A stretch of 64,000 nucleotides of DNA, taken from the NCBI GenBank assembly GCA_003284445.1, contig QBVH01000007.1:1-64000 (forward strand), written 5' to 3'. Origin of the DNA: Prochlorococcus sp. AG-311-D23. Lineage in GTDB: Bacteria; Cyanobacteriota; Cyanobacteriia; PCC-6307; Cyanobiaceae. Positions 16,470 through 19,910 of this stretch are shown piece after piece. How positions within the stretch are numbered: position 1 is the first letter of the stretch; the number at the start of each line of letters is the position of its first letter. Below the pieces are notes generated by a model that saw only the letters and a program-made list of their open reading frames with translations, ran no database searches and was not told where the DNA came from. The position numbers and the translations under genes were made by a program.

Positions 16470-17036
16470 ATGATTGATAACTCAAACTCAGATAAAGATC
16501 TAAGCTTCCTTCAAAAAATGTTTTTTGTTTTTCTTAGCCTTTTTTTAGTTGCTTTACTATTATTTTCCCGAAGTGGGTTTAAAGCTAATGCAATGCTTAA
16601 TCAATTGGCAAAGAACTCTCTGGAACCAGATATAGCTTTGACAAATGGAAAACCTACAGTATTTGAATTTTATGCGGATTGGTGTGAAGCTTGCAAAGAA
16701 ATGGCTCCTGATATGTTTGATGCTGAAAAACTAAATTCAAATAAAATAGATATAGTTTTACTTAATGTTGATAATCCAAGGTGGTTTGATTTGATTGATA
16801 AATATGATGTTAATGGTATTCCTAAATTAACTTTTTTTAACGATAAAGGAGAATTTATGGGATTTTCATTAGGAGTTAGAAAATATAGAGAACTTAATGA
16901 AATTTTTCTTGCTTTAATTAATAATTCTGATTTACCTTCTTATACTAAATTATCAACTTCAAGTAATTTGATTTCTAAAAATAATTTAAAAGTGTCAAAT
17001 AATATTATTTCAGAAGGTCCTAGAGATCATAGCTAG
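16470..17036 (+). CDS. Membrane-anchored thioredoxin-like protein (TxlA/HCF164 type)
   Basis: N-terminal TM helix then FEFYADWCEACKEMAPDMFD (WCxxC) and GIPKLTFF. Confidence 0.88.
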   Translation: MIDNSNSDKDLSFLQKMFFVFLSLFLVALLLFSRSGFKANAMLNQLAKNSLEPDIALTNGKPTVFEFYADWCEACKEMAPDMFDAEKLNSNKIDIVLLNVDNPRWFDLIDKYDVNGIPKLTFFNDKGEFMGFSLGVRKYRELNEIFLALINNSDLPSYTKLSTSSNLISKNNLKVSNNIISEGPRDHS

Positions 17037-17671
17037 ACTATCCAGTTTAAAGCGGATGAAACTACGGGATATTCTTGTGAGAATATATTTTTACATTCTT
17101 GTGCGATCACCATATGCTCTTTTTGCGTTCCATGTCCAGTTCTAAGATTTATGTAATGAATCCACGAACGACATGATCCTGTCATGTAAATTCTGGTTGG
17201 CGTAGCAAGTGGAAGTACAAATCTTGCACATTCTTTGGCTATTCCAGCTTCTAACATCTCTTCATAAAGTTCTTTGTTTTGATCAAATTGTTGTTTGATT
17301 TTTTTGTTGAATGCATTGATAATTTCTTTTGGTAAGTCTGAGATAGAATTTTGTCTATTTTTGTTATCTTGTCTTCTTAATTCTGGTATGGGAATTTCTC
17401 CTAATTGCATGCTATCTGCATAGCGTTGTGAGAATTCTTGAAAGGTAAATGATCGATGTCTTAAAATTTGTGCAGCAATTCCTCTAGTAGTTTCTATTTG
17501 CAAAGTCATATAAGCTTGCTCAAATACACTCCAATGTTCATTTTTAATGCAATACCCAATTAATTTCGTAAAGTCATCATTCTCTTGATTTTTTGGATTA
17601 CTAACCCTGGCAATATATGCCATGCTTTTTTCAGCGTCTGGCGTAGAAGTTATTAATTGAACACAACTCAT
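17033..17671 (-). CDS. thyX: FAD-dependent thymidylate synthase
   Basis: ThyX signature RHRSFTFQEFSQRY and CARFVLPLATPTRIYMTGSCRSWIHYINLR. Confidence 0.96.
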   Translation of the reverse strand: MSCVQLITSTPDAEKSMAYIARVSNPKNQENDDFTKLIGYCIKNEHWSVFEQAYMTLQIETTRGIAAQILRHRSFTFQEFSQRYADSMQLGEIPIPELRRQDNKNRQNSISDLPKEIINAFNKKIKQQFDQNKELYEEMLEAGIAKECARFVLPLATPTRIYMTGSCRSWIHYINLRTGHGTQKEHMVIAQECKNIFSQEYPVVSSALNWIV

Positions 17672-17673
17672 AC

Positions 17674-18267
17674 TTAAACCTTTGCTAGGGTAACTTTTTC
17701 TTTTTGATATTGATATTTACCTTTCCTATCACTGTAAGTTGTTTCACAAGGATCTCCTTCAAAGAAAAGTAATTGACAAATTCCTTCATCAGCATAAATC
17801 CTGCAATCTGCTCCAGAACTATTACTGAACTCCAAAGTTAGATGACCTTCCCAGCTTGCTTCAGCAGGAGTTGTATTTACGATTATTCCTAGGCGCGCGT
17901 AGGTGCTTTTCCCAAGGCAAATAACTGTAATATTTCGTGGTACTTTCATTTTTTCTAATGCAACACCAAGGCCGTAAGAGTGTGCAGGTAAAATAAAGTA
18001 TTTACCATCCTCGTCTTCTTTTAAATCTGTAGGTTCTAAATTATCAGGATTAAACTTTTTCGGATTCATCACTGTTCCAGGTACATGCTTAAAAATCAAA
18101 AACTCTTTAGAGGAAAGACGTAAATCATATCCATATGATGAGCAACCAAAGCTTAAAACAGGAGATTTTTCTGATTCGGGCTCAAGATGTCTTATTAGCT
18201 TTTCTTGGAAAGGTTGAAGCATTCCTAATGAAGCCTGTTCAGCAATCCAAAGATCGTTTTTTAACAT
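17674..18267 (-). CDS. dcd: dCTP deaminase
   Basis: SSYGYDLRLS, LGKSTYARLGIIVNTTPAEASWEGHLTLEFSN, YADEGICQLLFFEGD. Confidence 0.94.
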   Translation of the reverse strand: MLKNDLWIAEQASLGMLQPFQEKLIRHLEPESEKSPVLSFGCSSYGYDLRLSSKEFLIFKHVPGTVMNPKKFNPDNLEPTDLKEDEDGKYFILPAHSYGLGVALEKMKVPRNITVICLGKSTYARLGIIVNTTPAEASWEGHLTLEFSNSSGADCRIYADEGICQLLFFEGDPCETTYSDRKGKYQYQKEKVTLAKV

Positions 18268-18864
18268 TTAATTGCAGCGTAATTCAGTGATTTGATCAGC
18301 CATTTTAATTACTTTAGGAGGGATTGATGGTCCAGTAAGAATAATATCTGTGGATGATGTTCGATTATTTATCAAGGAAATTAAATCATTTTCTTCAATG
18401 AAACCAAGATTGATAGCCATTCCTATTTCATCAAGAACGATTTTATCTATTTTTTTTTCGGTTAAACGTGCTTTGCAAAATTCCCAAAGTTCTTTGATCG
18501 CTTTTTCTTCATATTTTCTTTTTAAAGATAAATGTTCTTCTAATATTTTTTCTGGCAAGCACGTTTCAATTGCTGGCCTTAGCCACTCAAGTCGCCCGCA
18601 AAGATTGATAGCTCCACTTGGCCCTTGATTGACTCCACCTCTCAAGAATTGAGCAATTAAAACTTGGCTTCCCAGCCCTGCAGATCTAATTGCTTCACTA
18701 AGAACAACAGAAAAACTACCTCTAAAAGTAGAAGTGTGGATTTGAACTTGACCTTGAGTTTTAACTAGTTGTAAAGGCTTTCTAATGGGGGTAGGCCTTA
18801 AAGACGTCTCTGTTGACGGCGATGAACCCCTTTGTTGAGCATTAACGCTCACTTGTGCATTCAT
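18268..18864 (-). CDS. CobO/BtuR-family protein (cob(I)alamin adenosyltransferase-like) with degenerate P-loop
   Basis: VLIAQFLRGG, KIDKIVLDEIGMAINLGFIEENDLI, IILTGPSIPPKVIKMADQITEL match CobO architecture, but the expected GxGKGKTT is TSTFRGSFSVV. Confidence 0.75.
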   Translation of the reverse strand: MNAQVSVNAQQRGSSPSTETSLRPTPIRKPLQLVKTQGQVQIHTSTFRGSFSVVLSEAIRSAGLGSQVLIAQFLRGGVNQGPSGAINLCGRLEWLRPAIETCLPEKILEEHLSLKRKYEEKAIKELWEFCKARLTEKKIDKIVLDEIGMAINLGFIEENDLISLINNRTSSTDIILTGPSIPPKVIKMADQITELRCN

Positions 18865-19178: not shown

Positions 19179-19910
19179 ATGGTCACCTCATATCGTGGCT
19201 TTACTCGTTTCAACCAACCAAGAAATACCCAGATGGTTGGTAATTCATCGTCTCCATTGCCTCCAAGCAAAACTCTCTTAGATGTAATTAAATCTTTGGA
19301 GGGAGTCTCTACTGAAACAGTAGATCGGTCAAAAACTATTTTTTTCCCTGGTGATCCTGCAGAAAGGGTTTATTTGATAAGACGTGGTGCAGTTCGATTG
19401 AGCAGAGTTTATGAAACTGGCGAAGAAATTACTGTTGCGTTGTTAAGAGAAAATAGTCTGTTTGGAGTTTTATCTTTATTGACAGGACATAGGTCAGATC
19501 GTTTTTATCATGCTGTTGCTTTTACTCGTGTGGATATCATTTCTGCTCCCGCCACATCACTAAGGAATGCAATTGAGCAAGATGCCTCTGTTGGGTTGCT
19601 ACTTTTACAAGGTTTATCAAGTCGAGTACTTCAAACTGAAACAATGATTGAAACTTTGACTCATAGAGATATGTCTTCTCGTCTTGCAAGCTTTTTACTT
19701 GTCTTATGTAGAGACTTTGGAGTGCCGGGGGAAAAAGGAATCACAATTGACTTAAGACTCTCTCATCAAGCCATTGCTGAAGCAATAGGTTCAACCAGAG
19801 TTACTATTACACGACTACTTGGTGAGTTGAAAAGTAATTCCTTATTGGCAATAGATAGGAAGAAAATAACCATATTCGATCCAATAGCGCTAGCAAAAAG
19901 ATTTAATTAA
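19179..19910 (+). CDS. ntcA: Global nitrogen regulator NtcA (CRP/FNR family)
   Basis: cNMP-binding-like barrel and C-terminal [28 protein letters not shown]. Confidence 0.97.

Follow-up and report, generated by a model that had tools for sequence, protein, structure and literature searches.

CobA-type enzymes are dimers. AdoCbl, a cobalt cofactor that is costly for cyanobacterial cells to make, is used by class II ribonucleotide reductase (RNR), and we know of no route by which it reaches this enzyme and of no dedicated escort or reactivation factor described for it. The cofactor of MetH is methylcobalamin, so that the cyanobacterial demand for AdoCbl is largely that of RNR. NrdJ and MetH are the two B12 enzymes of cyanobacteria (PMC6370689). 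In the human system of MMAB (ATR) and MMAA/MeaB, AdoCbl is delivered to methylmalonyl-CoA mutase (PMC8633584, PMC10356863, PMC10481361), and the adenosyltransferase doubles as the escort of AdoCbl (PMC8633584). Within the open-access literature, we found no description of the PRK07414 family or of a cofactor chaperone for cyanobacterial class II RNR.

Here we analyze a PRK07414 protein encoded in a 64,000-nucleotide stretch of Prochlorococcus sp. AG-311-D23 (the window, to which all unlabelled positions refer). Its gene is almost confined to cyanobacteria with an RNR that requires coenzyme B12, and the protein is therefore probably an unrecognised helper in handling the coenzyme, not its maker. 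The family is already present, without a function, in the NCBI models; what is new is a functional lead for a known, misnamed family.

A CobO-like protein without a P-loop

The open reading frame at 18268..18864 on the minus strand encodes 198 amino acids from an ATG start, with no internal stops. Along its entire length it is 94% identical to a counterpart in Prochlorococcus sp. AG-311-J23, in keeping with Prochlorococcus as the source. An earlier note, made from the letters alone, had recognised CobO landmarks in this protein, and every stretch that it quoted, i.e. VLIAQFLRGG, IVLDEIGMAINLGFIEENDLI, IILTGPSIPPKVIKMADQITEL and VQIHTSTFRGSFSVVLSEAIRSAG, was confirmed in the frame, on the minus strand. 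The protein matches Pfam CobA_CobO_BtuR (PF02572) at 3.3e-24 (86.5 bits; cut-off 25.7), and Salmonella CobA structures match it at 4e-9. The best NCBIfam model is NF005648 (PRK07414; 2.6e-47), with a score of 160.6 bits that falls below the curated cut-off of 248 bits, so that picocyanobacterial members would go unnamed by this model; of the control genomes, only Synechococcus elongatus exceeded that cut-off. A CobA fold is predicted: the structure prediction that the earlier note had proposed yields a confident CobA-like AlphaFold2 model (pLDDT 84.5; 89-95 on average in the former P-loop blocks), and its top four matches in the PDB are all Salmonella CobA, with E-values down to 3.9e-8 and 4hut as the best.

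In a column-by-column alignment, STFRGSFS (residues 45-52; 18709..18732, minus strand) stands where CobO has the Walker A sequence GQGKGKTT, and TSTFRGSF pairs with TGQGKGKT of the same genome's CobO without a single indel, so that no P-loop is concealed by a gap. A search for GxxxxGK[ST] throughout the rest of the protein found none; thus, the earlier observation that the protein has no GKT/S stands, and no intact P-loop lies elsewhere in it. The columns of the Walker lysine and threonine hold Ser and Phe in the window protein and mostly Phe-Phe in the other homologues, and Lys is not among the common residues at the lysine column (50) in 71 homologues. Walker A is absent in all 71 of these Cyanobacteriia homologues, the window protein counted. 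A displaced P-loop was considered and rejected: the single motif match among the homologues (GQGKT in L026) falls after the first helix, off the P-loop site. The loss reported in the earlier note is therefore real but not a matter of this one protein: it is the state of the whole cyanobacterial family, not local decay. The NF005648 members above the cut-off also have no P-loop, and, judged by the sequences, the model's name, 'P-loop NTPase family protein', is misleading in implying one. The labels 'CobO' and 'P-loop NTPase' that the PRK07414 gene carries in surveys of cyanobacterial B12 genes are likely wrong.

Other parts of the CobO framework are kept. A Walker-B-like DE pair (residues 145-146; 18427..18432, minus strand) is retained, with D145 in 70 and E146 in 71 of the 71 homologues; QF, GG, W94, R96, W127, TG and T193 are likewise near-invariant, as is the QFLKGG motif. 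TGP (residues 177-179; 18328..18336, minus strand) stands for the TGR of CobO, with T and G near-invariant and P in 51 of 71, and alignment bears out that TGPSIPP replaces the TGRGAS/TGRGAP segment of CobO. Newly conserved positions in the 71 homologues are Q41, R48, Q80, W94, R96 and Q191; Arg48, conserved in 70 of them, occupies the column of a P-loop lysine in CobO. The C-terminal tail of CobO (HPF..GI.A..GIEY), a feature that the earlier note had not mentioned, is also absent: the window protein terminates after ADQITELRCN, and the tail is present in CobO, in PRK07413 and in CobO sequences from L091 and L092, both non-photosynthetic relatives. The aromatic residues that position cobalamin in Salmonella CobA (FTW) are not conserved, and this loss is non-diagnostic because PRK07413, with its P-loops intact, is also without them. 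Corrinoid binding by the P-loop-less paralogue is thus putative.

Other adenosyltransferases in these cells

A search of the window's genome for a second CobO, as advised in the earlier note, found a canonical one with GQGKGKTT on another contig. Relatives have, in addition, PRK07413 (NF005647), in which two CobO domains are fused and both P-loops are intact; a search of the window's genome, which is 76% complete, did not reveal it. A PduO-type enzyme as a substitute adenosyltransferase was ruled out by its absence from all 30 cyanobacterial genomes searched, the window's included. It is very improbable that the PRK07414 protein still works as an adenosyltransferase, or as another enzyme that binds nucleotides, by holding ATP with Arg48 and the DE pair in place of a P-loop. 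The near-invariance of DE, TG and QFLKGG and the placement of Arg48 at a P-loop lysine position would suit such an enzyme, but the Walker A lysine and threonine are replaced, often by Phe-Phe, the CobO tail is gone, and intact adenosyltransferases coexist with it.

All 18 PRK07414 rows in the tree, the window's protein among them, are set apart from CobO and both halves of PRK07413 by a single branch (support 100/100); long branches part the three groups, and the support covers the grouping, not the order of origin. Among 19 Prochlorococcus sequences, the median pairwise dN/dS was 0.16 for the whole gene and 0.07 over residues 37-70, i.e. the former P-loop region, which is thus under strong purifying selection in Prochlorococcus. 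The gene is also retained in streamlined 1.6-1.7 Mb genomes of the family and across most of Cyanobacteriia. The loss of catalytic residues might by itself suggest a decaying, functionless copy of CobO; the selection result refutes this reading, the retention of the gene in small genomes and most of the class also speaks against it, and its probability is close to nil.

Co-occurrence with class II ribonucleotide reductase

Class II RNR was scored by TIGR02505 and class I RNR by TIGR02506 in a chosen set of 80 cyanobacterial genomes, of which 42 have the PRK07414 gene and 38 do not. All 42 gene-positive genomes have class II RNR, 41 of them by TIGR02505; the sole apparent exception, G300, has an AdoCbl-type TIGR02504 enzyme with an intein-like insert. 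Class II RNR is missing from 32 of the 38 gene-negative genomes, of which 31 have class I and one (G054) had no RNR detected; the remaining six, namely four genomes of genus g29, G288 and G207 (class I and class II), have class II RNR. Divergence was rejected as the cause of these absences, given that a search of the six genomes with a 50-member profile recovered no diverged copy.

Several observations on individual genomes accompany these counts. G054 (f2, g28) is a single contig in which neither class I or class II RNR nor PRK07414 was detected, and its close relative G237 is class II. G207 (f11), with both classes of RNR, has lost PRK07414, and its only trace of PRK07413 is an incomplete copy at the edge of a contig; this lineage may be on its way to class I. 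In many cases, the open frame that holds a cyanobacterial RNR gene is 1100-1850 aa long, which suggests inteins.

A wider survey covered 391 genomes of the class, with the gene called at E below 1e-30, class I RNR called from the TIGR02504 cross-match pattern and, where available, TIGR02506, and the counts compiled by hand. The gene was found in 346 genomes, 319 of which have TIGR02505; the other 27 comprise 18 with NrdJ_Z-type class II matches (some partial) and nine with no RNR detected, eight of the nine being at most 93% complete. Class II RNR was thus detected in 337 of the 346 gene-positive genomes, and none of the 391 genomes was found to combine the gene with class I RNR alone. Among the 45 gene-negative genomes, 13 have TIGR02505 (eight of these in drafts at most 93% complete), 29 have class I-type RNR, two have NrdJ_Z matches in incomplete drafts and one has no RNR match at all. 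Class II is the sole RNR found in Prochlorococcus, in marine Synechococcus and in most of the other cyanobacteria considered here.

The exchanges of RNR type bear on the nature of this link. In f18, f50 and f57, the monomeric RTPR has been swapped for NrdJ_Z, a dimeric AdoCbl enzyme, and the PRK07414 gene is kept; in f3, f5 (g67), f11 (g57), f16 (g83), f26 (g224, drafts) and one large clade, class I RNR is accompanied by loss of the gene. The most telling qualitative result is that the gene is kept with dimeric class II enzymes and not with class I, so that the link is with the need for AdoCbl, not with one RNR protein. Class II RNR can nevertheless work without the PRK07414 protein, as it does in genus g29 of f12, in G288 and in f58. 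The f58 genomes G445 and G453 have class II RNR, no PRK07414, apparently no PRK07413 and only one CobO-type match; f58 may be early-branching, in which case PRK07414 and PRK07413 may both be of later origin.

In an rpoB tree built for 79 genomes, at least 8 changes of state are required for the PRK07414 gene and 7 for class II RNR, or 7 and 5, respectively, with G300 corrected and G054 omitted. Gene and RNR differ jointly in f3, f5, f11, f16 and one large clade, to which the survey adds f26 (g224, drafts), and no pair on this tree runs in the opposite direction. When only well-supported branches are considered, two pairs agree, none disagrees and two show no difference, numbers too few for a sign test to fall below 0.05.

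PRK07413 follows nearly the same class II RNR pattern. G175, which has class I RNR, contains a 79-aa remnant of it (L093:2207-2446), which would be expected were the double CobO to decay once class I had taken over. The shared distribution is also what might be seen if the PRK07414 protein were a regulatory or structural pseudo-subunit that uses the CobA dimer interface to form a heterodimer with CobO or PRK07413, whose activity it tunes without carrying the cofactor. CobA-type enzymes being dimers, and the two genes lying within 4 kb of each other in one lineage (L067), such a subunit is conceivable, but G288 and g29 of f12 have PRK07413 and no PRK07414 protein, and we regard this alternative as unlikely.

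Gene neighbourhood and phage copies

Directly downstream of the PRK07414 gene, with a 0-bp gap (TAA then ATG), lies dcd for dCTP deaminase (17674..18267, minus strand; TIGR02274, 2.6e-33), followed after 2 bp by thyX for flavin-dependent thymidylate synthase (17033..17671, minus strand), the third gene of a likely operon. The thyX assignment is based on the position of the frame and on the match between a PHROG thymidylate synthase and a homologue of Prochlorococcus type that a viral contig encodes; thyX is likewise downstream in picocyanobacterial loci. A thioredoxin-like membrane protein at 16470-17036 (plus strand) is convergent with thyX. The divergent neighbour (19179..19910, plus strand), an ntcA-like regulator of the CRP family identified by eye and in the earlier note, is of contextual interest, and in the loci examined such a gene adjoins the PRK07414 gene in picocyanobacteria only. 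The earlier note had placed the gene between dcd and a divergent ntcA and considered a repurposed role possible; the placement holds and repurposing is supported, but the relevant neighbours are the co-directional dcd and thyX, not ntcA.

Adjacency to dcd, a criterion of our own that lies outside the curated definition of NF005648, is seen in the window and in 44 of 70 loci, which span many families, always with dcd downstream on the same strand and never on the opposite one; in most picocyanobacteria the gap is 0 or -1 bp. Two IMG/VR contigs carry a Prochlorococcus-type PRK07414-dcd-thyX arrangement (L256:244-2060, complete; L257:75-1630, with PRK07414 truncated) alongside T4-like genes for PhoH, an exonuclease, a late-promoter regulator and a gp59-like helicase loader. 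The Prochlorococcus siphovirus P-SS2 carries an annotated class II RNR together with dcd, thyX and a double CobO of the PRK07413 type (PMC2784084). No close copy of the PRK07414 gene was found when P-SS2 was examined.

This arrangement, with thyX next in Prochlorococcus and part or all of the gene carried with dcd and thyX on the two T4-like contigs, invites the explanation that the protein is a partner of dCTP deaminase and of the supply of dTTP, or a regulator of both that senses dNTPs, and that it is linked to RNR through nucleotide pools and not through B12. However, the gene is kept without a recognisable dcd in five genomes (G042, G197, G201, G286 and G324), dcd is retained in many genomes without the gene, and the class of RNR predicts the presence of the PRK07414 gene much better than dcd does. 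Dcd as an obligate partner was rejected, the presence and absence of the two genes not tracking each other, and the broader explanation appears to us less likely still than a pseudo-subunit.

A possible role in handling AdoCbl

The earlier inference of a protein other than the usual ATP-dependent corrinoid adenosyltransferase is supported by the family-wide loss of the P-loop and tail, the coexistence of an intact CobO, the adjacency to dcd and the co-occurrence with class II RNR. Co-occurrence fits AdoCbl handling, a direct effect on RNR and an effect on dNTP pools alike. The reading that we tentatively prefer, and that may well be correct, is a non-catalytic CobO paralogue in the AdoCbl economy of class II RNR. 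The synthesis of AdoCbl would not be its task, since enzymes with intact P-loops, namely CobO and the double-domain PRK07413, are able to carry it out; more likely, the paralogue would bind AdoCbl or a precursor, or dock on an active adenosyltransferase, and AdoCbl might thereby be stored, delivered or metered for NrdJ. Co-translation with Dcd and ThyX would couple the cofactor supply to deoxynucleotide synthesis. By analogy, an escort role would resemble in its logic the chaperone function of MMAB. The narrower proposal, that an adenosyltransferase gave rise, through loss of ATP binding, to a factor dedicated to escorting AdoCbl to class II RNR or to reactivating this enzyme, is possible but doubtful. 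Either way, a conserved pseudo-adenosyltransferase whose presence goes with the AdoCbl requirement of RNR, for both class II types, is a named candidate for AdoCbl handling.

Comparison with known systems

MMAB offers a precedent for an adenosyltransferase that escorts AdoCbl to one target enzyme, but MMAB and MMAA have PduO-type and G-protein folds, respectively, unrelated to CobO. PRK07413 is, like the window protein, a cyanobacterial CobO paralogue with a distribution close to that of class II RNR; unlike it, PRK07413 has two intact P-loops and the full tail, and does not lie beside dcd in the fetched loci. Salmonella CobA (PDB 1g64/4hut) shares with the window protein the fold (TM 0.60-0.62), the Pfam family, the DE and TG motifs and QF(L/I)(K/R)G(G/T), whereas the window protein, at 20-22% identity, is without Walker A and without the C-terminal GIE(Y/F) tail. 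The members of PRK07414/NF005648 belong to the same clade as the window protein and occupy the same place beside dcd, and those above the cut-off likewise have no P-loop; the window protein differs in that it scores under the cut-off.
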